Below, one piece after another: positions 1,572-49,118 of a stretch of DNA of 64,000 nucleotides. Numbering within the stretch: the stretch's first letter is position 1; each line of letters begins with the position of its first letter. The notes beneath the pieces are model-generated. The model saw nothing but the letters and a program-made list of their open reading frames with translations. It did not search any database and had not been told where the DNA came from. This DNA comes from Chimonanthus salicifolius (lineage: Eukaryota > Streptophyta > Magnoliopsida > Laurales > Calycanthaceae). A program made the translations under genes and the position numbers. The DNA is taken from NCBI GenBank assembly GCA_013350335.1, contig CM023540.1, positions 60,469,195 to 60,533,194 on the forward strand, in the 5' to 3' direction.

Positions 1572-1595
1572 GCTAGGAAGTAATATGAAGGGGTA

Positions 1596-1611
1596 TTAAA
1601 GAGAGGGTTAT
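1596..1611 (+). other. Internal polypurine-like tract after the extra gene of A
   Basis: TTAAAGAGAGGGTTAT, one base different from the tract that precedes the 3' LTR (3421-3436). It occupies the same position as the exact copy in B (11454-11469). Confidence 0.6.
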
Positions 1612-2255
1612 TTGGTAAGGGCGTATTTTGTTCTCTATAGGGTTTTGTTTCACCCTACCCACCTTTGTACAAGGATGAAGTATGAATTTATATAAAGTAT
1701 GCGATGTTATGATTCTAAGAGGATTTTTGGCACTAAGATATAAGTGACGAGGTCACTTGATTACATTGAGACGTGGTATGGGTGCGTCCCTCACATGGTA
1801 TTGATGAGATAAGAATATAAACTTCATGAGTATGGCTTTGAGTAGCTATGAGGCTGTGGGAACCTTGATACGAAATACGGAGACTTGGTCCCGTAGGGCT
1901 ACCGTTGAGGAGTGGGTCCCTCGCATGCTACGCGCTGGAGGGCACTCTCACGGCTGTTTGGCACACTAGATGTGCTGGAATGCGCAGAGCTAGATACTAT
2001 TTTACTCGGTGGGGGTGGTACTAGTTTCGTCAGACGCGGAGCGACCGCCTTAGAGCTTGACTGAATCACCTATGAGGTGAAGGGATGCAGGGCGAGGTAG
2101 ACTGGATCACGTTGGACGTGGGTCTTCTGCTTGGTAAGTCATGAGTCCTAAGTCTTGCAAGGGGTCGGGATATATTTGTGATTTGATATGGTTACCACAG
2201 TCTTATAGTGATTCATTTGAATGTTGTTCCTACGGATATTAAATCATGGATAGAT
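1612..2255. other. Non-coding filler of A
   Basis: The first 90 bases match the spacer between the extra gene and gag-pol in B (CACCCTACCCACCTTTGTACAA). After that I recognise nothing: no reading frame of note and no match to gag-pol. This sequence has replaced most of the coding region of an autonomous element. Confidence 0.6.
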
Positions 2256-2800
2256 GATACTCATGGACAGAGTGATACCAAGGATGGATGGTTTCCATGA
2301 ATGGATTATACCCATAAGTGGGTTATTTCATGGATAGTTATTAATCATACATAAATGATACTCATGGACAGAGTGATACCAAGGATGGATGGTTTCCATG
2401 AATGGATTATACCCATAGGTGGGTTATTTCATGGATAGTTATTAATCATACATAAATGATACTCATGGACAGAGTGATATCAAGGATGGATGGTTTTCAT
2501 GAATGGATTATACCCATAGGTGGGTTATTTCATGGATAGTTATTAATCATACATAAATGATACTCAAGGACAGAGTGATACTAAGGATGGATGGTTTCCT
2601 TGAATGAATTATACCCATAGGTGGGTTATATTCATGGATGGTTAGTAACTGTGTTTAGATAATGCTCCTGGACAGAGTAATACCAAGGATGGATTGTTAC
2701 CATGAATGGATTATACCCATAGGGGTTATATTCATGGATGATTATAAAACAGAGATAGATGATATTTATTGAAAGCGAAACACCAGGGATGGATGTATTT
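2256..2800 (+). repeat. 101-bp tandem array in the body of A (about 5 copies)
   Basis: Units begin GATACTCATGGACAG at 2256, 2357, 2458 and 2559, each exactly 101 bp apart, then decay over one or two shorter copies to about 2800. Each unit contains several CCATGAATGG or CATGGATAG type near-palindromes. It stands where gag-pol should be. Confidence 0.9.
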
Positions 2801-3258
2801 AACCATGGGTGATTATTCCCATGGTGGTTTGGATTGATGCCGGGAATTGGTATCGTGGAAGTTGGAACAAAAGTTGTTAGTCACATAGAGACTTATGTGC
2901 AAAGAAAGATGTGTTTAAATTTGGAGATATACTCAACGGAAAAGATAAGTGTCTGGTGAAACTTGAATGGGAAACTATGGACGACTGTCGAGTTAGACTG
3001 ATCACCTGGCTCTGTAGTTAACCGATGGAGTTCCAGGAGAGTGCAACTAGAAACCTAGTTGAAATGGAATCAGAAAAAGCTCTGAGCATAGGCTCGCATT
3101 GGCAGGCTACCTCACACAGAGAGTAGATAAAAGAACATATTGAGCCGGTACGTATGGAAAATACTATGAGAGCAGGTAAAGTGAAACAGAGTAGATTGAT
3201 CTATGTGAGATCACAAATGGCTCACGATAAAAAGATATAACATGAGACAAAACAAAAG
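2801..3258. other. Unassigned internal sequence of A
   Basis: No open frame or recognisable retroelement domain. It leads without a clear boundary into the chromodomain scrap at 3259. Confidence 0.4.
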
Positions 3259-3390
3259 GTGTTACGGAACCAAGCGATTCAATTTGTCAAAGTGGTGTGG
3301 ATCGACATGGTAATGAAAAAGTCACTTGGGAAACTGAAATCGGAAATAAGAATAGCATACTCTGAGATATTTATCGAATCATTTAGAAGC
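3259..3390 (+). pseudogene. Chromodomain remnant (end of lost gag-pol) in A
   Basis: Nucleotide match to the last 45 codons of the gag-pol of B: the frames for [14 protein letters not shown] and then, after a one-base shift, RHGNEKVTWETEIGNKNS-like sequence up to the end of the chromodomain. At least one frameshift makes it non-coding. It shows that A descends from a full chromovirus by internal deletion and replacement rather than being an unrelated element. Confidence 0.75.
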
Positions 3391-3420
3391 CTACTTCACT
3401 AGATTTTCGGGACGAAAATT

Positions 3421-3438
3421 TTAAAAAGAGGGTTATAT
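3421..3438 (+). other. Polypurine tract of A
   Basis: TTAAAAAGAGGGTTATAT directly before the 3' LTR. It is preceded by the GGGACGAAAATTTT motif that the elements here share. Confidence 0.85.
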
Positions 3439-7469: not shown

Positions 7470-7597
7470 GGCATAGCATTCATCATATGGTTTTATTATA
7501 TTACTATCAGTATGCTTGTTATCACTAATCCATGTGCTAGCCCTACCCGGAGTCCTACTGGGCGCGTTGTCTAACGCCCTACTTCTACCCTAGCTGA
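7470..7597 (+). mobile_element. LTR X, second piece between A and B
   Basis: 128 bp of X separating two related insertions in the same orientation. It contains the GGGCGCGTTG...AACGCCC branch-point-like hairpin and the acceptor-like CCCTAG (ends 7593). It ends in GCTGA, the target duplicated by B. Confidence 0.85.
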
Positions 7598-8669
7598 TGT
7601 AACACCCCAATTTCTCAATGAAGTGGAAAATTACCAAAATGCCCCTGAGTTGTTAAATTAATTATTTTGTGATGTTAAGTAAGGAAATAGTGGGGCCCAT
7701 TGCTCAAAATAAAATCATATGAGCACATTATGAATGTTAAGATTTATTGGTTGGGTAATTTTCATCATTTGGGTCAAAAATGGCTAAATGGGTCAAAGGG
7801 CCCAAATGGGGCCCATCGGGTCTTGCTGGGTTATTTGACCGTTTTGTGATTTTAAATTAAAAGGGGTTAAGCCTATTTGATTGGAAATCAAGTGGAGGAA
7901 AAATGGGTAGGCTTGATCCATATGTAAAAACCAATTAGAAATGACCAAAATACCATAAATGGGTCATGTTGTCAAAACGGGTCAAGGAGCTAAAAGTGGA
8001 CCCAACGGGTCGAGTTGACTATTGTTGACCGTGTGAACCCTCAAGGGAGCTCAAACACGATTCAAATCAGTTGAGTGGGATGGAGGTGAGTTGGAATTAA
8101 ATCAAAAGGTGAGTTAACTCATATGCATGAAATGAAATGCATTAAATGTGATGAGTTGGGTTGGAATAAAAATACCTTGAGTTGAGTGAGTCAAAATGGA
8201 AACTCAAGGGGCTGTAAATTCAGTGAGTTCAAGGGGAATTGGAAGAGTTTAGCTGGTCTCAAATCAGCCAAAACAAGTCCCACACGTTGGGGACTTGTTT
8301 TGGTGAGTTCCATGGTAAATATTAAATATAAGTGCATGGGTTTGAGGTGGGTTGCTTGGGGATTTGAATGGCTGCATTGGTAGCTGCCAAGGGGTGCCTT
8401 GGATGGCACCCAATGCCCACCGTTTTGAGCAAGAAATTATGAGGAATTGAGAGGTTTTTGGGGCTGAACTACAAAAGAACAATAAACACCCATGGTTGGC
8501 CGTTTTTGTCAAAGGAAACCCAATTTTTCCCATCTCTTTCACCCTCTCTTCAATTGGTGTTCTTGGCTGGAGCAGCAGAGGCTTTTGGTACCAAATATTC
8601 AAGCATACAATCAGCAAGGAGTTAAGGAAACAAGGATTAAAAGTCAAGAGCAAAAGGCAAAGGAAAGTT

Positions 8670-10015
8670 GTAAGTTTTTCCCATTGATTTATGGTTAATA
8701 AAATGGGTAAAATAAGACATGATTTGGCCATGTGATGGTCAAATCTATCAAAGGGTTAAAATATGATTCCTTTATGCTCAATTAGATGGAAAACATGGAC
8801 ATAGGGTTCGGCCACTTTGGATGGCCGAACCCCATGAAATTTTATGGTTAGTGTTGATGGTTTTGTAAGGATTAAACCATGCAAGAATAGGACCGATTTT
8901 AGAGGTCTAAGATACATGCTTTGGAAAGATTGAAAACATGGATTTGCATGTCATACCATGGTCGAATTTGACAAGAGTCTAAACCATGGAAGAAGGTGTC
9001 AAAAGAAATGAAATGAACCATTGGGTTTGGCCACTTTGGGTGGCCAAACCCCATGAAAAGAGTTGGTTAATGGTTATGGTTTTTGAAATTTAAAACCATC
9101 CATTTGGGGACTGTTTTTACATATTTTATTAAGATTTAAAATACATGTTTAAAGAGGGTTAAAACATGGGTTTGGATATCAGAAAAGGCTGAAGATATGT
9201 GGTCTAATCAGTGGAGTAAAATTGGAGAAGATGGACCATGGGGATCGGCCATCTTGGATGGCCGAATCCCATGATATCATGTTGGTTTTTGGATGGTTTC
9301 TTTTAAAGTTAAAACCTGATGTTAATACGCTGTTAATTACATGATGATTGAGGTTTAAAAACAGCAAACATAACCATTGGGTTCGGCCAACATAGAGGGC
9401 CGAACCCCATGTAAAAGAATGTTGGTTTCATGTTGGAAAAACATGTAAACCATAGACTTTTTATGGACTGTTTGGTATATGGATAAGGTACCGGAAGTCG
9501 AACGACGTGCGAGTCGTGACCGGGTGACGCGAAAGAAAGATCAGTTACTGAAGGGATTCGTAAGTAGGTTTCCTACCTACTTGTAACCACGGTTTTTACC
9601 CAGTTTTCTTATGATACTCTTGTTTTAATATATATGTTGCAAATGATATATTATGCATTAACAAATGGCATACAGGCATTGGCATCTCATGCATAGTCAT
9701 GGGATAATGAATGAAGTTCTACAGTGATGGTTACGATTGTACATGATGGGGGTTGCCCATTGCATGTACATATTGTATAGAAGAGATGAATGTTGTTGTA
9801 ATTTACCTTGTCGGTGCAAGGCACGTCAAGTGATGGCTATGAAAGTACATGATGGGGGATGCTCATTGCATGTGCATATTTCATAGCATTGTTTTACCTG
9901 TTTTGATGATCATGTATTATGATATGTATATGCATGTTTTATATGCTAACATGTGGTAGCCCTGATTCGGGAACCTACTGGGCGCGTTGATCTAACGCCC
10001 TAATTCTATCTTCAG
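8670..10015 (+). other. Predicted leader intron within the B 5' LTR (1346 nt)
   Basis: Donor GTAAGT at 8670; acceptor ATCTTCAG ending 10015, with TCTAAC about 23 bases upstream. The 3' LTR has the same at 17515-18860, also 1346 nt. If spliced, exon 2 would run through U5, the primer site and the leader. Inferred. Confidence 0.5.
8800..9410 (+). repeat. Hairpin array in the B 5' LTR (4 units)
   Basis: Units at about 8807, 9023, 9240 and 9380. The second has both arms changed together (GGGTTTGGCC with GGCCAAACCC), which keeps the pairing. An identical set sits at 17648-18250 in the 3' LTR. Confidence 0.9.
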
Positions 10016-10448
10016 AGGAGATTGCAGGTACAAGCAAGGGGAAAGGAACGGTCATTGACCAAGAGGGGAGCTGAGCCTAAGTGCTTTAATAATGGATTTG
10101 GATTACGTTTTATTACTGTCATTTGAATACTATTGTTGGACATGTAATAATTCGTTATTTGCGGTGGTTTGTTTAGGATAATAACTTGTGGATGGTTGAT
10201 CTATGTTATTTATTATTTAAGACTATTACTTGCTAGCTCGTCTTTTTATTCCGCATGTTGATGTTAGTTCCATGTGTGAATCACTATCATGATCTATTCC
10301 ATGTACACATGGGTGGCCAGTTAAGGTTCAGACTTGGGTAGTCTGAACTTAACTCGCGTCGTGACGCCGCCCGCTCTCTTCCGTTGTTTATAAAAAAAAA
10401 AAAAAAAATTAGACTCTGAAATTCTCGGAAAGGGCGGGGCGTTACAGT

Positions 10449-10460
10449 TGGTATCAGAGC
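10449..10460 (+). other. Primer-binding site of B
   Basis: TGGTATCAGAGC, initiator-Met tRNA type, 2 bases after the 5' LTR. Confidence 0.95.
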
Positions 10461-10893
10461 GAAACGGGAAGTTGAATCATCGAAGTAAGATTAAGACGGT
10501 TTCATGTCTCACTGACGGATAAGAATCCCAACTGACCGACTCTTCGGAGTCCGCTGCCTGGGGGCCGGATTAATTTACTTCGAGTGACTCGGACTGAACA
10601 ATCAATCTGAGAACGACAATGAATGATAGCAAAGTAAAGTACAATCATCATAATTGGACAAATCATACGTAGCAAGGTAGGATGAACTCCCTTGAAATCC
10701 CCACACTGAGAAACAAACAATAGGAAATTAGAGATTTCCCCAGAAATAAAAAGAAAACAAAGAATGTTGATTTGGTAATCTTCCTAAACAAAGTACATGA
10801 TATTTTGCATGATCAAAATTCCCTGGAAACCAAGAGTGGTTTATTTAGAATTATTGTTGAATATGTTTGTGTTTGAAATGATGTGGCACAGAT
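10461..10893 (+). other. Leader of B with UUCG hairpin
   Basis: Contains the perfect stem GACTC-TTCG-GAGTC at 10538-10551, a classic stable tetraloop form. The leader is closely similar to those of A, E and H although none of it is coding, which suggests a function in RNA packaging, dimerisation or translation control. Confidence 0.6.
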
Positions 10894-11430
10894 ATGTCAA
10901 GCAATGAAGAATACACTGAGTTATGGGATAAAGGGACACCAAGTTGTCCGGTAGATTTGGTGTCAACTTCCGACAGTATCAGTATGGAAGTTAATGTGGA
11001 TCTTCAGGAGGGACCTCCTGAAGAAGCTGATGTGGACTTAGCGCCTCTTCCAGAGGATCTGATGGATGACATTCCTGAGATGGTGGAACCTCCTGAGGAA
11101 GAGGAGGATGATCTAGCACAATTACTGGAGGATCCCATGGCTGGTGTACCTATTATATTGGAATCACTTGGGGAGATAGATCCCTATGACACATGTGAAC
11201 TGTGCAATCAAGATGGGCACCACTGCCGGTATTGTCCTCATCCACTGGGTGTTGTCTGCCCGTCCTGTGGACTACATGGGCATGGTGAGGCAAGGACTAA
11301 TTGTCCATACATCGGAGGACCTGGATTAGTACCCTGCACGACTTGTGAGGTATTGGGGCACACGGCGATGACGTGTCCTGATAACCGATTCAAGTTCGCT
11401 TTTGATGCGGAGTCTTCTACGGAAGACTAG
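10894..11430 (+). CDS. Extra 5' gene of element B: acidic protein with three CCHC zinc knuckles (178 aa)
   Basis: Homologue of the gene at 1002-1571. The N-terminal about 95 residues are acidic (PPEEADVDLAPLPED, PPEEEEDDLAQ). Three zinc knuckles follow: CELC...H...C near residue 101, CPSC...H...C near residue 122 (x6 in the last gap), and CTTC...H...C near residue 149. The C-terminus is ESSTED. In the C-terminal 80 codons most codon differences from A are silent, so the protein itself appears to have been conserved. It lies upstream of gag-pol in the same frame, separated by 219 bases with several stops, so fusion by readthrough is excluded. Expression would need a separate RNA, reinitiation or splicing. 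It is not gag: B's gag, with its own single knuckle, is downstream. Possible roles are RNA chaperone or packaging factor, or a captured host gene. The function is unknown. Confidence 0.88.
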   Translation: MSSNEEYTELWDKGTPSCPVDLVSTSDSISMEVNVDLQEGPPEEADVDLAPLPEDLMDDIPEMVEPPEEEEDDLAQLLEDPMAGVPIILESLGEIDPYDTCELCNQDGHHCRYCPHPLGVVCPSCGLHGHGEARTNCPYIGGPGLVPCTTCEVLGHTAMTCPDNRFKFAFDAESSTED

Positions 11431-11453
11431 GATAGGAAGTAATAGTAGGGGTA

Positions 11454-11469
11454 TTAAAAAGAGGGTTAT
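11454..11469 (+). other. Internal copy of the polypurine tract in B
   Basis: TTAAAAAGAGGGTTAT, identical over 16 bases to the tract before the 3' LTR (16426-16441). It lies 24 bases after the stop of the extra gene. It could prime a second plus strand, as central polypurine tracts do, or mark an old recombination joint. Confidence 0.7.
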
Positions 11470-11649
11470 TTTTGTAAGGGGGTATATTTTGTTATACATA
11501 GGGTTTGTTTCACCCTACCCACCTTTGTACAAAGATGCAGTTTGAATTTATATAAATATGTGATTTCATGTTTTTATGAGGATTCATGGCATGTGTTGCA
11601 TATTGTTAATGGAAACTAAGACTATGATGTTTCCATGAATTAGGACTAA

Positions 11650-14600
11650 ATGGCGCCACAGAAAAAGGTGGTAAAAGATCTGAAGGGTAAAGAAAAAGTT
11701 TTACAGATCGGACTAGGTGAGGGGGTGTCAAAGAGAAGGACCCGTCAGGACGATAAAAAGAAAGATGACGTGCTCATTGTCACACCACAAGGGAGGGTGG
11801 TACCCCGACGCAAGAAGGCGTCATCGGAACCTGATAGAGAGCAATCCGTTCATGACGAAGAGAGGTCTATACATGAACAATCTCACAATAAGGAAGAGTC
11901 TAACCATTCTCGGCGGGAAGAAGAAGGGAGTGACCCTACGTATCAACAGGACGACGAGGAGGAATATGACTCGTCGTATCGACGCAAGGAGGAGGAGAAT
12001 AGCAACATGACTGTACCCTTTGTGCCTCCTGAACTGCACAGCTTGGTGCAAGCTGTGGTTACATCTGTCCTCCAACAACATTTGAACGGAGGGGGAAACA
12101 TGAGCGAAAATAATGACCGAAACATGGTCAGAGATTTTCAGCAACAGCGCCCACCTTACTTCAAGGGCAGAGAAGGGCCTATTGGGGCCGAGAATTGGTT
12201 GGAGAAGATTTCGCATATATTGACTCTTTTGAACATCAAGAGTCATGCCCATAAAATATTATTGGCCACGTCACAGCTGGTGGATGACGCTGCCAAATGG
12301 TGGAAGGTGGTGGAGAAACAGCAGGCACTTGTGCCAAGAAGAGAAAGAGTTACTATGACCTGGGAGCAATTCTCCGCGACATTTCTAGAGCGCTACTTTC
12401 CAGAGGAAGAAAGAGAACGTCAAATTCAGGCCTTTATGACGTTAGTACAAGGTTCAATGACGGTGGCTGAGTATCACCAAGAATTCCTCAGCCTGTCAAT
12501 CTATGCATACTATATTGTGGACACGGAATATCGAAAGGCTCGCAAGTTCGAGCGTGGGTTACGGCCAAACATTAGGGCCAAGGTAACTGTGTTCAAAGCA
12601 GCCACGCTGGCGGAAGTGGTCAGCAGGGCCACCATTGTGGAACAGGAGATGGCGGAATTTGCCAGAGTGGACAACCGCCGAGCTCCGAGTGGGAGAGGTG
12701 GGTACCAACCCAACAAAAAGTTCAGACCGAATTTCAGCAGACCCTCACCGTCTGTTGGATCAAGTGGGGGCTTTCGCCCCAACCAGCCCACTCAATCTGT
12801 TGCGGTCACTCAAGCATCCCGAGGAGTGAATACTTGCTTTCACTGTGATCAACCTGGTCACTACAAAAAGGATTGCCCAAAGCTCAACAGGCTGTCTAAC
12901 TCAAGAGGATCATTTCGTCCGCCAGCTAGACCGGCATACTCCAGAGGAGGCAGAATGCAGGGCCGGGGAGGTCGAAGGTCTAACCCTGCTGGGGCAGGAC
13001 GATTATTCACTCTAACTTCTCCAGAGGAAGAGGAGGAGGATCATCCTGTGATACAAGGTATGGCGGTAGTGAGTAGCTCATATGCATATGCACTATTTGA
13101 TTCCGGAGCATCACACTCCTTTATAGCTGCATCGTTTATTAGTGCTACTGGTACATTAGTTCAAAGATTAGCCACAGAACTTACTATTGTATCCCCTGTC
13201 GGAGATTCGGCATTGGGACTTATTTGTACTGCGGTTAACACCGAATTAGCTGGACTCAGATTTGAGTTCAATTATTTAGTGCTGGACATGTCGGAATATG
13301 ATATTATATTCGGAATGGATTGGTTGGCAAAGTTTCATGCCAACATCGACTGTTATGGTCGAAGAGTGACATTTAAGTCACCCGAGGGCAAGCAATATGT
13401 AGTTCGTGCAGATAAACAAAGTGGATTACAAGAAGGGTTAAACCACGTGGTATTGAATAATATCACCATAAACAAAGCTCCAGTTACTGAACTTCCGGAA
13501 ATTGTACAAGAATTTGGGGATGTGTTCCCAAAGGAACTCCCTGGTTTACCACCTATGAGAGAGATTAACTTCGAGATCAGGCTGTACCCTGGCACAGCAC
13601 CAGTGTCGTTACCACACTATCGGATGGCACCAACGGAGATGTCGGAGCTAAAGAAGCAGATTGATGAATTGCTTAGGCTGGGTTGCATCCGGAATAGTAC
13701 GTCATCATGGGGAGCACCAGTGTTGTTTGTGAAGAAGAAGGACGGTTCACTACGGATGTGCGTGGACTACCGGAAGCTGAATCAGTTAACAGTCCGGAAC
13801 AAGTACCCTCTACCCAGGATTGACGATTTATTTGATCAATTGAGGGGTTCTAGTCATTTTTCAAAGATCGATTTGATGTCTGGTTATCATCAAATCCGAG
13901 TTAGAGAGGAAGATATAGAAAAGACAGCTTTTCGGACGCGATATGGACTGTTTGAGTTCGTGGTCATGCCATTTGGACTCACAAATGCGCCGGCTGTGTT
14001 CATGGATTTAATGAACAGAATCTTCCGTCCCTATCTGGATCAGTTTGTAATTGTATTCATTGATGATATCCTAATCTATTCTAAGAGTCAGGAAGAACAT
14101 GCAAAGCATCTACGGATAGTTTTGAATATTTTGAGGCAGAATAAACTGTATGCCAAGGCCAGTAAGTGTGAATTTTGGCTATCTCAAGTGAATTTCTTAG
14201 GACATGTTATATCCGAGGAAGGAATAGCCGTGGATCCGGCTAAGGTGACGGCCGTGAAAGACTGGAAAGCGCCAAAAAACGTAACCGAGATCTGCAGTTT
14301 CTTAGGATTGGCGGGTTATTATCGGAAATTTATTATGGATTTTTCCAAATTAGCGTCTCCATTGACTCGACTCACTCAGAAAGGAGTCAAGTATGAGTGG
14401 TCAGATCTGTGCAACCAAAGGTTTGAAGAGCTAAAAGACAGACTTACAACCGCTCCTATTTTGATTTTGCCGGAAAAGGGCAAGGGTTATGAAGTAGAAT
14501 GCGACGCTTTGGGAGAAGGACTGGGGTGTGTCCTCAGTCAAGATCATCGTGTGGTGGCTTATGGTTCAAGACAACTAAAAATACATGAACGCCTCTATCC

Positions 14601-16380
14601 TACGCATGATCTTGAACTAGCCGCAGTGGTCTTCGCTCTCAAAAGCTGGAGACATTATCTTTATGGCGAGAAGTTTGAAGTGTATTCTGATCATAAGAGT
14701 TTGAAATATTTATTTGATCAGAAGGAGCTTAATCTAAGGCAGCGTAGATGGATGGAGTATCTGGCGGATTATGAGTTCGAGCTTCGATACCATCCAGGCA
14801 AGGCAAACAAGGTGGCCGATGCTCTTAGCCGCATATCACATGCATCCGTGGCATGTCTGATCAGAACCGAGTGGGAGATGTTGAATACCATTCGAGAATT
14901 CAATCTATACATTACAAACCGTGGAGTTTTGCACAATTTAATCATACGGTCCAATATAGTCACCAAGATTGAACAAGAACAAAGAGCAGACCCGGAAGTC
15001 GAGGACATATGGGCCAAGATGTCTACTGGCACCGTTGTACCGGAATGGGAACTACGACCAGGACAGGGTCTTGTATTCCGGGGAAGAACTTATGTGCCAA
15101 AGAGTTGCAGGAAAGAGCTACTGATTGAGGCACATCAATCCAAGCTCTCTATTCATCCGGGTAGCACCAAAATGTATCATGATCTAAAGAGGCATTATTG
15201 GTGGCATGGACTAAAAAGGGATGTGGCGGAATTCGTGGCACACTGTCTAACTTGTCAACAAGTTAAGACTGAACACCAAAAGCCACCAGGGTTGCTCAAA
15301 CACTTAGCCGTGCCAGAATGGAAATGGGAACATATTTCCATGGACTTTGTATCCGGGTTGCCGAGGTCTTCAAAGGGTAATGACGCCATTTGGGTCGTAG
15401 TCGACCGGCTGACCAAGTCTGCACATTTCATTCCTATCAAGATGACGGATTCGTCTGAGACGTTGGGTCGGCGTTATATTAAAGAGATCATTCGACTACA
15501 TGGTATTCCCCGAACGATAGTATCGGACAGAGATGGCCGTTTTACTGGCAGAGTATGGCAAAGCATGCAGACAGCCATGGGGACTGAGCTATTGACTAGC
15601 ACCGCATTCCATCCACAGACTGATGGTCAGTCTGAAAGAACAATACAAACCTTGGAAGACATGCTGAGAGCGTGTATGTTAGATTTCAAAGGAGGATGGG
15701 AGGACCACTTACCATTGGTGGAGTTCTCCTATAATAACAGCTATCAGGCAAGCCTTCAAATGGCTCCTTATGAGGCTTTATATGGTAGACCGTGTAGGTC
15801 ACCGGTATGTTGGACAGAGGCAGGTGAGCCTGCATTGATCGGACCAGAACTAGTCGCAGAAACTACTGCACAAATTAAGTTGATACGTCAACACTTGTTG
15901 ACTGCACAGAGTCGGCAGAAGAGCTATGCTGATAAAAGGAGACGGTTTCTGGAATTTGAAGTGGGAGACTTGGTGTTTCTAAAAGTCTCACCACGGAAGG
16001 GACATATGAGGTTTGGCAAGAAAGGAAAACTGTCGCCAAGATATGTGGGACCATTTTCCATCATAAGAAGGATGGGGGATGTAGCTTACCAATTAGCACT
16101 TCCATCGCAATTAGCAGCTCTACACGATGTGTTCCACGAGTCGATGCTAAGGAAATACAATCCGGATCCGTCCCATGTTTTAAATGTTCAAGATATTGAA
16201 GTACAAAGCGACGTGACGTACGTCGAGAAGCCGGTCAGAATAGTGGAGACCGAACAAAGGGTGTTGCGAAACAGAGCGATTCAGTTCGTAAAAGTGGTAT
16301 GGGACCGTCATGGTGTTGAAGAGGCCACATGGGAACTTGAATCGGAGATGAGAACAGCTCACCCCGAATTGTTTGTGTAA
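11650..16380 (+). CDS. Gag-Pol polyprotein of element B (1576 aa, Ty3/gypsy chromovirus, Tekay/Del-like)
   Basis: A single open frame coding for capsid, replication and integration functions. Residues 1-120 are basic then acidic and of low complexity; the gag core is about 165-330 (PPYFKG, WWK, TWEQF, YFPEEE, EYHQEF). A CCHC knuckle lies at 396-409 (CFHC...H...C). The protease motif is LFDSGA with D484. RT is about 650-830 with FIDD (D805, D806). RNase H follows with D952, in the context CDALGEG where E and H have CDASGEG. Integrase has H1162/H1169-C1199/C1202 and the catalytic triad D1232, D1293, E1329 (D-x35-E). The C-terminal chromodomain is about 1525-1576 ([21 protein letters not shown]). 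Gag and pol share one frame without a shift, usual for this lineage. The ATG is chosen because it begins the open stretch after several in-frame stops. The only suspicious change is the Ser-to-Leu beside the RNase H aspartate. Confidence 0.96.
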
Positions 16381-16425: not shown

Positions 16426-16443
16426 TTAAAAAGAGGGTTATAT
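16426..16443 (+). other. Polypurine tract of B
   Basis: TTAAAAAGAGGGTTATAT ending exactly at the 3' LTR. It is preceded by the TTTTCGGGACGAAAA inverted repeat common to the elements here. Confidence 0.92.
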
Positions 16444-19295
16444 TGTAACACCCCAATTTCTCAATGAAGTGGAAAATTACCAAAATGCCCCTGAGTTGTT
16501 AAATTAATTATTTTGTGATGTTAAGTAAGGAAATAGTGGGGCCCATTGCTCAAAATAAAATCATATGAGCACATTATGAATGTTAAGTTTTATTGGTTGG
16601 GTAATTTTCATCATTTGGGTCAAAAATGGCTAAATGGGTCAAAGGGCCCAAATGGGGCCCATCGGGTCTTGCTGGGTTATTTGACCATTTTGTGATTTTA
16701 AATTAAAAGGGGTTAAGCCTATTTGATTGGAAATCAAGTGGAGGAAAAATGGGTAGGCTTGATCCATATGTAAAAACCAATTAAAAATGACCAAAATACC
16801 ATAAATGGGTCATGTTGTCAAAACGGGTCAAGGAGCTAAAAGTGGACCCAACGGGTCGAGTTGACTATTGTTGACCGTGTGAACCCTCAAGGGAGCTCAA
16901 ACACGATTCAAATCAGTTGAGTGGGATGGAGGTGAGTTGGAATTAAATCAAAAGGTGAGTTAACTCATATGCATGAAATGAAATGCATTAAATGTGATGA
17001 GTTGGGTTGGAATAAAAATACCTTGAGTTGAGTAAGTGAAAATGGAAACTCAAGGGGCTGTAAATTCAGTGAGTCCAAGGGGAATTGGAAGAGTTTAGCT
17101 GGTCTCAAATCAGCCAAAACAAGTCCCACACGTTGGGGACTTGTTTTGGTGAGTTCCATGGTAAATATTAAATATAAGTGCATGGGTTTGAGGTGGGTTG
17201 CTTGGGGATTTGAATGGCTGCATTGGTAGCTGCCAAGGGGTGCCTTGGATGGCACCCAATGCCCACCGTTTTGAGCAAGAAATTATGAGGAATTGAGAGG
17301 TTTTTGGGGCTGAACTACAAAAGAACAATAAACACCCATGGTTGGCCGTTTTTGTCAAAGGAAACCCAATTTTTCCCATCTCTTTCACCCTCTCTTCAAT
17401 TGGTGTTCTTGGCTGGAACAGCAGAGGCTTTTGGTACCAAATATTCAAGCATACAATCAGCAAGGAGTTAAGGAAACAAGGATTAAAAGTCAAGAGCAAA
17501 AGGCAAAGAAAGTGGTAAGTTTTTCCCATTGATTTATGGTTAATAAAATGGGTAAAATAAGACATGATTTGGCCATGTGATGGTCAAATCTATCAAAGGG
17601 TTAAAATATGATTCCTTTATGCTCAATTAGATGGAAAACATGGACATAGGGTTCGGCCACTTTGGATGGCCGAACCCCATGAAATTTTATGGTTAGTGTT
17701 GATGGTTTTGTAAGGATTAAACCATGCAAGAATAGGACCGATTTTAGAGGTCTAAGATACATGCTTTGGAAAGATTGAAAACATGGATTTGCATGTCATA
17801 CCATGGTCGAATTTGACAAGAGTCTAAACCATGGAAGAAGGTGTCAAAAGAAATGAAATGAACCATTGGGTTTGGCCACTTTGGGTGGCCAAACCCCATG
17901 AAAAGAGTTGGTTAATGGTTATGGTTTTTGAAATTTAAAACCATCCATTTGGGGACTGTTTTTACATATTTTATTAAGATTTAAAATACATGTTTAAAGA
18001 GGGTTAAAACATGGGTTTGGATATCAGAAAAGGCTGAAGATATGTGGTCTAATCAGTGGAGTAAAATTGGAGAAGATGGACCATGGGGATCGGCCATCTT
18101 GGATGGCCGAATCCCATGATATCATGTTGGTTTTTGGATGGTTTCTTTTAAAGTTAAAACCTGATGTTAATACGCTGTTAATTACATGATGATTGAGGTT
18201 TAAAAACAGCAAACATAACCATTGGGTTCGGCCAACATAGAGGGCCGAACCCCATGTAAAAGAATGTTGGTTTCATGTTGGAAAAACATGTAAACCATAG
18301 ACTTTTTATGGACTGTTTGGTATATGGATAAGGTACCGGAAGTCGAACGACGTGCGAGTCGTGACCGGGTGACGCGAAAGAAAGATCAGTTACTGAAGGG
18401 ATTCGTAAGTAGGTTTCCTACCTACTTGTAACCACGGTTTTTACCCAGTTTTCTTATGATACTCTTGTTTTAATATATATGTTGCAAATGATATATTATG
18501 CATTAACAAATGGCATACAGGCATTGGCATCTCATGCATAGTCATGGGATAATGAATGAAGTTCTACAGTGATGGTTACGATTGTACATGATGGGGGTTG
18601 CCCATTGCATGTACATATTGTATAGAAGAGATGAATGTTGTTGTAATTTACCTTGTCGGTGCAAGGCACGTCAAGTGATGGCTATGAAAGTACATGATGG
18701 GGGATGCTCATTGCATGTGCATATTTCATAGCATTGTTTTACCTGTTTTGATGATCATGTATTATGATATGTATATGCATGTTTTATATGCTAACATGTG
18801 GTAGCCCTGATTCGGGAACCTACTGGGCGCGTTGATCTAACGCCCTAATTCTATCTTCAGAGGAGATTGCAGGTACAAGCAAGGGGAAAGGAAAGGTCAT
18901 TGACCAAGAGGGGAGCTGAGCCTAAGTGCTTTAATAATGGATTTGGATTACGTTTTATTACTGTCATTTGAATACTATTGTTGGACATGTAATAATTCGT
19001 TATTTGCGGTGGTTTGTTTAGGATAATAACTTGTGGATGGTTGATCTATGTTATTTATTATTTAAGACTATTACTTGCTAGCTCGTCTTTTTATTCCGCA
19101 TGTTGATGTTAGTTCCATGTGTGAATCACTATCATGATCTATTCCATGTACACATGGGTGGCCAGTTAAGGTTCAGACTTGGGTAGTCTGAACTTAACTC
19201 GCGTCGTGACGCCGCCCGCTCTCTTCCGTTGTTTATAAAAAAAAAAAAAAAAAAAAATTAGACTCTGAAATTCTCGGAAAGGGCTGGGCGTTACA
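16444..19295 (+). mobile_element. 3' LTR of B (2852 bp)
   Basis: Nearly identical to the 5' LTR. The poly-A run near the end is longer, and about ten substitutions are visible, for example the donor context GTGGTAAGT here against GTTGTAAGT in the 5' LTR. The predicted intron is at 17515-18860 and the hairpins at 17648-18250. Confidence 0.94.
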
Positions 19296-19795
19296 GCTGA
19301 TGACGCAGGAGACGGATGAAATGGTGGACGCGACTGAAGTCAAGCTTAGGAGCTTGGGAAAACGACTACTTTGTTTATCAAAGTTTTATTTTGGAAAAGT
19401 TGTAACTTCAGTAGCTTAGCTTGTCGAATTGTAATAATTTTGGATTTCTTGCTATGGTCTGGATTATACTCTGTACGTTATCATTTTGAGACATAATTAT
19501 GAACATTTGGGTATCTTAGTAGTTTAATGATGTATCTTTCCTTCTATCTAAAACCGGTAGGATAGTATCTATTATAATGTTCCGCATGTAATTATATTTT
19601 GCGAGCTTACTTCCTACGCGTGAACTGTACTCGTGGACTTCATTCCGCGCACGCGTGGGGTTGGCCAGTTAAGGGCCGGGCTTTAGAAGTTCAGACTTAA
19701 CTCGCGTCGTGATGTCCGCGCCCATTGTCACTTTTATTTAATTCAAAAAAAAAAAAATAGACTCTGATTTCGGCGAAAATGGGGCGGGCATTACA
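19296..19795 (+). mobile_element. LTR X, third piece and end
   Basis: Continues X after B (ATGACGCAGGAGACGG, then AAGCTTAGGAGCTTGG) through the conserved U5 TTAAG...CTTAA hairpin and an A-run, to GGGCATTACA at 19795. No primer site follows, so X is a 3' LTR or a solo LTR. The sequence after it (GGTTT) belongs to LTR D. Confidence 0.85.
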
Positions 19796-23463: not shown

Positions 23464-23465
23464 GT

Positions 23466-23477
23466 TGGTATCAGAGC
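23466..23477 (+). other. Primer-binding site of E
   Basis: TGGTATCAGAGC, initiator-Met type, 2 bases after the LTR end. Confidence 0.92.
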
Positions 23478-23949
23478 AAAACCGGAAGTGTTGAATCTCG
23501 CAAAGTAAGATTAATATGGTATCATGTCTCACTGACAGATAAGAATCGCAACTAACAGACTCTTCAGAGTCTACTGCACGGGGGCTGGATTAATTTACTT
23601 TGATGAGAATCAGCTGTAAGCATTCAATTTGATAACAACATTTGATGAGCAAAACAACAGCAAGGGAAGGACAATCACTATAAATTGTAGATTTATCAAA
23701 TATAGCGAAATAGGTAGTTCCTCCCCCGAACAATAAACATCATGTGATACTTAGAAAATCTCCCCAAAACAATAAATACAAGATGTCACTTAGGCAATTT
23801 CCCCAAGAAAGGAACACAAATGATATTTAGGAGAGCTAAGCAGAACTTTCCCCTCCCTATGATTATTTGAACAATTATAACATCAGAGTATGTGAACAAA
23901 AGTTCTTATTAGCAAATTAAGTCAACCAATGTTTCAATGACTTAGGAAA
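23478..23949 (+). other. Leader of E
   Basis: Same layout as A and B: ATGTCTCACTGAC, a hairpin GACTC-TTCA-GAGTC (23558-23571), then TTCCCC-rich repeats of about 50 bp. The extra zinc-knuckle gene is absent, since gag begins only about 470 bases after the primer site. Confidence 0.65.
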
Positions 23950-26381
23950 ATGCCTCCAAGAAGAAGCAATACCTGACAGAACCCACATCAGGAAGAGGGA
24001 CAGGACAGTGTAAATATTCCTGAGGTGCCTCTCGAGCTACAGAGCTTAGTAATAGGCAGTGGTCACCTCCGTTCTACAGCAACACTAGAACGGCAATGGA
24101 GGTTCAACCTCCAATGAATCTCAGGACCGAACAATGGTCAAGGATTTTCAATAGCAGCGTCCCCCTTATTTCAAAGGGAAGGAGGGACCCGCAAGAGCGG
24201 AGAACTGGATTGAGAATATTACAAAGATCTTAAAGTTGCTCAAAATCACCGATGACCAGGACCGAATACTGCTAGCTACCTCACAACTGGTAGATGATGC
24301 CAGCAAATGGTGGAAGGTTATCGAACATCAACAAATGCAGATTCCAGTAGAGGATAGAACATAGATAACTTGGGATCAGTTTGCTGGGATGGTTTTGGAC
24401 CATTACTTTCCAGAAAAGGAGAAAGAGGCGCCAAACACAGGCACTCATAGCCTTGGTCCAGGGCACCATGACCGTCGCAGAATATTATCAAGAATTCCTT
24501 CATCTATCATGTTATGCTCTGTACATTGTGGACACTGAATATAAGAAGGCCCGGAAGTTTGAGCAAGGTTTGAGACCAAACATCAGAGCCAAAGTTACTA
24601 TTTTCAAATCAACTACTTTGGCAGAAGTGATCAGCAGAGCCGGTATAGTCGAACAAGAGCTAATGGAGACAGTTAGATTTGTGAACAACAGACGAAGCCA
24701 GAGCGAGGGAAATACTTTCCGCCATCACAAGAAATTCAGACCCAACTTTGGGAGACCCTCAGCCTCTACTGGTTCTACTGGTGGTTTTTCGTCCCAATCA
24801 GCCCTCCACATCAGGACCAGTCTCTCAGGCTCCTCGAGGTGTTATCACCTGTTATTAGTGTGGCCAGCAGGGCCATATGAAGAGGGATTTTCCGCATAAC
24901 AATAGACCTTCTTACTCCAGGGGTTCTTTCCGTCCTCCAGGCCGATTAGCTCAGTTGCAAGTAGCCAGGGCACATAACCAGTCAGGACAGGCACCCATTC
25001 CGACAAGATCTGGATGGTTATATACTTTAGTTCCTCCTCCAGAGACAATGGATCACTCAATGATTCAAGGTATGGCAGTAGTTGGTAGTTCTTATGCTAT
25101 TGTATTATTTGATTTAGGAGCATCCCACTCCTTTATGTCTGCTACCTTCATGTCTGCTACTGGTATCTTAGTACAACAACTATCCACTGCACTTACTATT
25201 GTATCCCCTGTTGGAGACACATCACTGGGTCTAATCTACACCTCCGTAGATATTGAACTTACTGAGTTCAGATTTAAATTCAACTACCTGGTACTCGAGA
25301 TGACAAAATAGGATATCATACTTGGCATGGACTGGTTGGCTACCTTTCAAGCCGGCATTGACTGTCACCTTCGCAGAGTGATATTCTAGTCACCCGAGGG
25401 AAAACGGTTTATAGTACATGCCATCGGTAGAGATTCCTATGACCAGGAGATTACATGAAGAAATGAACCATCTCGTACTAATCAACATCAGACTAGACAA
25501 GGCGCCGATGAAAGAACTACATGCTGTAGTGAAATACTACGAGGGGTATTTACAACAGAACTCCCTAGTTTGCCTCAAAAAAGGGAGATTGATTTCGAGA
25601 TTAAACTCCATCCTGGCACTACTCCTGTATCATTACCTCATTACCGGATGGCCCCAGCAGAAATGTCTGTGCTGAAGAAACAAATTGATGAGTTGCTCAG
25701 ACTAGGATGCATCCGGCACAACACCTCATCCTAGGGAGCACCAGTATTGTTCGTAAAGAAGAAAGATGGTACTCTTCGGATATGTATGGATTACAGGAAG
25801 TTGAATCAATTGACTGTCAGGAACAAGTACCCTCTACCCAGAATTGATGATTTGTTCGATCAAGTCAGAGGCTCCAGCCATTTCTCCAAAATTGATCTTA
25901 TGTCAGGCTACCATCAAATCCATGTTAGGGATGAGGACATAGAAAAGATGGCTTTTAGAACTCGGTATGGACTGCATGAATATGTGGTCATGCCTTTTGG
26001 ACTCACCAATGCACCAGCCATATTCATGGATCTGATGAACAGAATATTTTGTCCTTATGTGGATAAATTCGTAATTGTCTTCATTGACGACATTATAATT
26101 TATTCCACCAGTTGGGAAGAGCATGCTGAACATCTAAGGATAGTTTTGGACACTCTAAAGAAGAATCAGTTATATGCCAAAGCAAGCAAGTGCGAATTAT
26201 GGCTATCTGAGGTCAACTTTTCGGGACACGTTATATCAGCTGAAGATATAGCCGTAGACCCAGCTAAAGTGGCAGCGGTTAGAGACTAGAAAGCTTCAAA
26301 GAATGTGACCGAAATCCACAGCTTTCTGGGACTAATTAGATACTATCGAAAGTTTATTATGGACTTCTCCAAGAATACAGC
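23950..26381 (+). pseudogene. Gag-PR-RT part of element E gag-pol (degraded)
   Basis: Starts ATG CCT CCA AGA as in H's gag but stops at codon 9. The gag core is readable at 24381-24840. The zinc knuckle is broken by a CAG-to-TAG stop at 24856. The protease has the active-site triplet changed to DLG (about 25110). RT is readable at 25747-26289, including FIDD, after a TGG-to-TAG stop at 25732. Most lesions are C-to-T or G-to-A, as expected for long methylated DNA. It is cut at 26381 by solo LTR F and continues at 29957. A Tekay/Del-like chromovirus related to B and H. Confidence 0.9.
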
Positions 26382-48900: not shown

Positions 48901-49011
48901 TAGTGTGATTGTCCTTCCCTTGCTATCATTCATTTCCGTCGAATGTTGTTCTCAGATTGAATGCTTCAGTTTGAGTCAATCGAAGTAAATTAACCCGGCC
49001 CCCGTGCAGCA

Positions 49012-49025
49012 GACTCCGAAGAGTC
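49012..49025 (-). other. Leader UUCG hairpin of H
   Basis: Minus-strand GACTC-TTCG-GAGTC, the same as in B, about 80-90 bases after the primer site. The surrounding bases (CCCAACTGACC before, CTGCTGC after) also match B. Confidence 0.65.
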
Positions 49026-49104
49026 GGTCAGTTGGGATTCTTATCTATCAGTGAGACGCGAAACCGTCTTAATCTTACTTCGAGAGATTCATTCTTTCGA
49101 TTTC

Positions 49105-49116
49105 GCTATGATACCA
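49105..49116 (-). other. Primer-binding site of H
   Basis: Minus-strand TGGTATCATAGC, one base off the initiator-Met consensus (TGGTATCAGAGC), 2 bases from the 5' LTR. Confidence 0.88.
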
Positions 49117-49118
49117 AC

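Follow-up and report, generated by a model that had tools for sequence, protein, structure and literature searches.

A selected ORF0 encoding an acidic protein with three zinc knuckles upstream of gag-pol in a young, putatively Tekay-like LTR retrotransposon of Chimonanthus salicifolius

Extra genes are widespread in plant retrotransposons, and the functions of most of them are unknown. Within a stretch of 64,000 nucleotides of Chimonanthus salicifolius DNA (GenBank assembly GCA_013350335.1, contig CM023540.1, positions 60,469,195 to 60,533,194; hereafter the window, whose own numbering and forward strand are used below unless stated), which is rich in LTR retrotransposons of plant type, two elements, termed A and B, carry an open reading frame, ORF0, between the primer binding site and the position of gag-pol. 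The locus thus raises the question of whether ORF0 is a genuine gene and, if so, what its product may do for the element and how the element came to possess it. Since ORF0 is compact, its domain plan can be recognised and its element moved recently, its role is testable; moreover, small ORF0 genes may be commoner than thought. Our analyses lead us to regard ORF0 of element B as, very probably, the selected ORF0 of a Tekay-like element.

Element B is intact, young and recently mobile. Its 5′ LTR (7598–10446, with the ends TGTAACACCC...GGGCGTTACA) pairs with the 3′ LTR (16444–19295), both copies of a GCTGA target-site duplication are present (7593–7597 and 19296–19300), and the two LTRs differ by 10 substitutions over 2,848 aligned sites, with 6 further columns being gaps (K80 0.0035), which at plant rates of 1.3e-8 and 7e-9 dates the insertion to about 0.14 and 0.25 million years, respectively. 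Between the LTRs lie a primer binding site (TGGTATCAGAGC, 10449–10460), which opens a leader (10449–10893), then ORF0 (10894–11430), gag-pol as a single ORF of 1,576 aa (11650–16380; gag, CCHC knuckle, protease, RT, RNase H and integrase) and a polypurine tract (16426–16441) ahead of the 3′ LTR. The LTR pair, target-site duplication, primer site, polypurine tract and the gag-protease-RT-RNase H-integrase order are those of a Ty3-type element. The primer site motif, which we take to be of the tRNA-Met type, would agree with chromoviral usage, and the name of the Tekay (Del) clade, given to B both in the preliminary description and here, is a putative assignment. According to the accessible text of the REXdb survey, most chromoviruses use a tRNA-Met primer site (PMC6317226). 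The C-terminus of the integrase carries SH3_Tf2-1 at residues 1439–1503, with no chromodomain family among the 17 families listed at a Pfam E-value of at most 10; it could be read as a type II-like tail. ORF0 itself is sense-oriented, lies between the 5′ LTR and gag, and is distinct from gag-pol: it is in the gag frame, but is ended by a stop that is followed by several further stops.

In element A, ORF0 (1002–1571, 189 aa) is open as well and a polypurine tract precedes the 3′ LTR (3421–3436), while gag-pol is missing except for its last 44 codons; element A may represent a non-autonomous form whose only gene is ORF0. Repeats spaced by 101 bp (2242–2629) are found in the part of A from which gag-pol is gone (1572–3438). 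In front of its primer site the LTR matches are short ones only: within 471–559, stretches of 67–77 nt match the A/B LTR ends in inverted orientation and 27 nt (533–559) in direct orientation, the LTR end having undergone a local inversion.

Comparison of the two copies revealed that ORF0 is a real gene, as the preliminary description had supposed, and one kept by purifying selection. The proteins are 77% identical in the MAFFT alignment (71.6% by tblastn), and over 177 aligned codons the genes differ at 120 nucleotides, distributed 29, 22 and 69 over the first, second and third codon positions (chi-square p 1e-7). The NG86 estimate, which is based on these two sequences only, both of them open (2/2), yields dN 0.150, dS 1.025 and an omega of 0.15 (bootstrap 0.081–0.240; 999 of 1,000 replicates usable), and YN00, applied to the whole ORF only, gives 0.160/0.722. 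Hence, the excess of third-position changes together with the low omega identifies ORF0 as a selected gene. The knuckle part (dN 0.069, dS 0.638) and the acidic part (dN 0.229, dS 1.823, near saturation, with 810 of 1,000 bootstraps usable) were also estimated separately. The net length differences between the copies are multiples of three, and neither copy has lost any of the twelve CCHC residues. For the pol pieces of B and E, a relative of B within the window, omega was 0.047–0.062 in three of the four pieces, at a dS of 1.7–2.3 that is near saturation, the fourth piece having no usable dS. Set against these values, ORF0 is constrained, yet less tightly than pol and faster-evolving.

The product of ORF0 had been described as a protein of 178 aa (B) or 189 aa (A) with an acidic N-terminus and three CCHC knuckles spaced x2-x4-x4, x2-x4-x6 and x2-x4-x4, and its coordinates, lengths, spacings and acidity were all borne out. 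The knuckles occupy residues 101–114, 122–137 and 148–161 in B and begin at residues 112, 133 and 159 in A; among 20,000 shuffles of the residues of the B protein, one such motif arose in 61 and two or more in none. Among the 94 residues of the N-terminal part of B, 29 are acidic and 1 is basic, the figures for A being 26 and 1 out of 105, and the pI of the whole protein is 4.05 in both. The knuckle-bearing stretch is itself net acidic (−2 for residues 99–169 of B, −3 for its counterpart in A), as against +12 for residues 372–449 of B gag, around the separate knuckle that gag had rightly been said to possess (residues 394–411; Pfam zf-CCHC, E 2.5e-5). Moreover, at the first position within the ORF0 knuckles stands E, P or T, where nucleocapsid knuckles usually have an aromatic residue. 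A Pfam search returned no family over the cut-off for ORF0, the best being the zinc knuckle (E 0.085 for A and 0.28 for B), and a comparison with PDB gave 18 weak matches, the best at E 0.049; nucleocapsids or gag account for 12 of these, and the top four include TRIM37, yeast Air2 (E 0.083) and CHD4. Retroviral nucleocapsid and Air2 thus share the CCHC spacing of ORF0 in weak matches (E 0.05–0.08), but ORF0 differs from them in being acidic, in its long acidic N-terminal arm and in having no significant homology to either. AlphaFold2, with two sequences as input, produced no model that could be used (pLDDT 40.8 for the whole protein and 37.3 for the knuckle part), and no relatives of ORF0 were found in viral and prokaryotic contig collections (where an RT piece was also searched, in the viral set), which are little informative for a plant gene. 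Two further readings of the protein were rejected. The acidic arm does not stand out as an activation domain, as nonamers of the activation-domain pattern are not above shuffles (3 in B, reached by 294 of 2,000; 1 in A, reached by 1,756 of 2,000). Nor does ORF0 appear as a duplicated piece of gag, the only tblastn match being one of 36 residues to the knuckle region of B gag (E 0.39). At the nucleotide level, 11090–11113 matches gag-pol at 13019–13042 over 24 nt (E 7.7e-4), within runs of acidic codons.

ORF0 is present in two of the four window elements that have a primer site; not counted is a fifth primer-like match (14792 on the minus strand, 2 mismatches), which falls within gag-pol. Elements E and H, with primer sites at 49116 (minus strand, one mismatch) and 23466, had been reported to lack ORF0, and indeed gag starts about 703 nt (E) and 485 nt (H) past the primer site, and tblastn of the B protein at E<=1 found in both just matches of 17–18 residues at the gag knuckles (47484–47431 and 24847–24897). 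Over an initial 177–241 nt, their leaders are 78.5–83.0% identical to the leaders of A and B, the part of the B leader that recurs in both being roughly its first 185–210 nt; E matches the B leader further at leader positions 251–293 and 301–375. On the other side of ORF0, the gag start of B is matched by H over 41 nt (E 1.8e-4) and, in a local alignment only, carrying no significance test, by E. These sequence matches place ORF0 between a leader and a gag start common to its ORF0-less relatives; by their limits, the ORF0 segment of B would span roughly 10824–11602, and in E the corresponding place is taken by about 70 nt peculiar to that element. The distribution may reflect either a gain on the A/B branch or a loss in E and H.

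Extra ORFs 5′ of gag are on record in other plant elements. Steinbauerova and colleagues are said to have described in 2011 histone-H3-like 5′ extra ORFs in grass chromoviruses; like ORF0 these are 5′ extra ORFs, but they would encode a different protein. A sense ORF0 between the 5′ LTR and gag-pol is documented, in the part of the source available, for Retrosat2, FRetro3, RIRE3, RIRE8 and homologues from maize, sorghum and Brachypodium, and was found there in grasses only (Gao et al., 2012; PMC3485330). A 5′ additional ORF of 402 aa (5′aORF) is likewise reported, in the accessible text, from 500 of 523 elements of sunflower Tekay group 2 and from none in groups 1 and 3, and it has no amino-acid similarity to the grass proteins (PMC11728184). 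Hence, the claim that such a gene is unfamiliar in Tekay/Del elements does not hold for its location, since 5′ extra ORFs have been published (PMC3485330; PMC11728184). As far as the accessible accounts go, ORF0 of B, compared by description only and not by sequence, resembles the Retrosat2, FRetro3, RIRE3 and RIRE8 genes in its sense orientation, its position between the 5′ LTR and a single gag-pol ORF and the long LTRs of its element. The LTR ends are alike (TGTCACACCC-GGGCGTGACA in Retrosat2/RIRE8, TGTAACACCC-GGGCGTTACA in B), and in Retrosat2, as in B, ORF0 evolves faster than gag-pol, with a Ka of 0.257 for ORF0 against 0.078 for ORF1 in the text available (PMC3485330). With sunflower group 2 it shares the Tekay clade (putative for B), the sense position 5′ of gag-pol and the restriction to a subset of elements; the sunflower protein, though, is described in the available portion of its source as 402 aa long, proline-rich, mostly disordered, with a nuclear localisation signal and no known domains (PMC11728184), whereas that of B, set beside it by description only, has 178 aa, is acidic and bears three CCHC knuckles. 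The accessible parts of PMC3485330, PMC11728184 and PMC6317226 make no mention of zinc knuckles for the grass ORF0 or the sunflower 5′aORF; the main text of PMC3485330 contains no instance of "knuckle" and a single "zinc", which refers to a modelled ligand. Among the matches listed from open-licence literature, supplements apart, no three-knuckle ORF0 of a plant LTR retrotransposon was recognised. Thus, the location of ORF0 is already known, and the acidic three-knuckle type of protein appears to be new within the literature searched, as far as its accessible text goes. The REXdb survey, according to its available text, set a lower limit of 250 codons for the extra ORFs that it counted (PMC6317226), so a gene of 178 codons like ORF0 would be missed by it.

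The arrangement of start codons bears on how ORF0 and gag could be read. In B, ten ATGs lie between the primer site and ORF0, five of which open a frame running past the ORF0 start, and ten more lie between ORF0 and gag (11535–11635); A has seven ATGs ahead of ORF0. Reading of ORF0 from unspliced RNA is therefore doubtful, and plain scanning to gag is unlikely. Using approximate splice-site weights, we found the best donor-like site, AAG/GTAGGA, with the first base of a candidate intron at 10677, and the best acceptor-like site, ACATAG/G, with its last base at 11501; the same sites are the best in A (786 and 1640), although the two copies are too alike there to count twice. This candidate intron (10677–11501) would drop ORF0 but leave the ten ATGs before gag, whereas a second candidate acceptor, GAATTAG/G at 11643, just ahead of the gag ATG, would drop those as well; acceptor-like sites ahead of gag are also seen in E and H, with a score of 4.9 in all three when B's 11643 is included. 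Just before the ORF0 ATG, both copies have ACAG, which scores 5.9 as an acceptor in A and is outside the best ten in B. Taken together, the splice-like sites around ORF0 in A and B amount to a suggestion of spliced expression.

We propose to identify ORF0 as the 5′ additional gene of a Ty3-type element that is Tekay/Retrosat2-like and was recently mobile, and to regard its product as a regulatory or adaptor protein that would act in trans, an explanation which, taken whole, we give slightly less than an even chance. ORF0 would be expressed, with a differently spliced transcript as its probable source, and its protein might serve the element in trans: the knuckles would bind either a partner protein or some specific nucleic acid, and host factors would be recruited or blocked by the acidic arm. 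The protein would not be a general RNA chaperone, and in the version that we favour it may lift host silencing or raise expression. The regulatory or adaptor mechanism as such, drawn from composition and analogy only, is put forward tentatively. That ORF0 is open by chance, or is a functionless passenger, is extremely improbable. An open frame by itself is weak evidence for a gene, the frame having stayed open in 446 of 20,000 neutral simulations with 120 substitutions and in 2,537 of 20,000 with 60, and ORF0, in its two copies, evolves faster than pol; against this stand the omega of 0.15 with an upper bootstrap bound of 0.24, the third-position excess and the twelve retained CCHC residues. 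Quite unlikely, too, is that ORF0 would assist Gag in selecting or annealing genomic RNA, as a packaging chaperone or one of nucleocapsid kind, a role raised in the preliminary description. Its three CCHC knuckles and the prevalence of nucleocapsids and gag among the weak PDB matches (12 of 18; Air2 at 0.083) would suit such a protein, as would the strong conservation of the adjoining leader (A and B agree at 408 of 443 aligned sites) and its ability to fold as a long stem. However, a chaperone of the nucleocapsid type combines CCHC knuckles with a basic character, and ORF0 has the former but not the latter: its pI of 4.05 and a knuckle stretch at −2/−3, compared with +12 in the element's own nucleocapsid stretch, speak against this role, and E and H retain the first part of the leader without ORF0. 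By composition and analogy, a regulatory or adaptor role would be the likelier one for ORF0, and a packaging factor or chaperone the less likely.

As to origin, a copy of the polypurine tract, TTAAAAAGAGGGTTAT, lies behind ORF0 in both elements, 23 nt past the stop in B (11454–11469) and, with 1 mismatch, 24 nt past it in A (1596–1611). With up to 2 mismatches allowed, the tract occurs at four places in the 64 kb, namely the two true tracts and one behind each ORF0, while shuffles gave a mean of 0.10 places and four places in 0 of 100; the match score of the tract in the B spacer (11428–11649) was attained by 0 of 2,000 first-order resamples. The alignment continues there into the TGTAA of the LTR start, the resampling having taken in the tract only. 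These observations are a hint that ORF0 was acquired from a 3′ position or, alternatively, that plus-strand synthesis has a second primer, and they provide a concrete hypothesis for how such genes are gained, namely that template switching brought ORF0 in from the 3′ part of a related element (the interval between pol and the polypurine tract), together with the tract and the first LTR bases. We consider this route rather doubtful; the match spans only about 24 nt, at E<=0.5, all that 10824–11649 shares with the B LTRs is an 11-nt word lying within the tract, with no longer LTR similarity, and a retained central tract would give the same picture. Nevertheless, acquisition with a tract-LTR junction is slightly favoured over a central plus-strand priming tract, and being about origin, it is compatible with the functional readings. 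Capture of a host gene, or of part of one, from a cellular zinc-knuckle family (Air/ZCCHC-like) is unlikely. The knuckle series is weakly like Air2, and gene transduction by plant elements is described in the accessible text of PMC7264820; yet no Pfam family passed the cut-off even for the better-scoring A copy, and the GC content (0.453–0.489) and GC3 (0.416–0.439) of ORF0 are like those of gag-pol (0.461 and 0.457). A far-reaching combination, in which ORF0 and its tract would form a mobile accessory cassette swapped among Tekay-like elements by template switching, the protein being a counter-silencing or expression factor and the internal tract a second plus-strand primer, is a very long shot.

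Several observations concern the leader itself. About 190 nt past the primer site are kept in all four elements (10447–10640 in B, 556–749 in A, 48906–49118 on the minus strand in E and 23464–23660 in H), a conservation that contrasts with synonymous sites between B and E, which are near saturation. The four leaders are predicted to fold as a long stem with 54 consensus pairs, 6 of them with two-sided change, and this conserved stem is a candidate packaging or dimerisation signal; for the B leader alone the folding energy by itself is not significant (z −1.7; 12 of 200 shuffles fold equally well). All four leaders have a donor-like GTAAGA close to the primer site; it was not relied on as a splice site, as it lies inside the predicted stem and its conservation may therefore be structural. 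The leader of B also holds, between 10504 and 10723, three small upstream ORFs (MSH, one of 17 aa and one of 13 aa), which occur at matching places in A and B.
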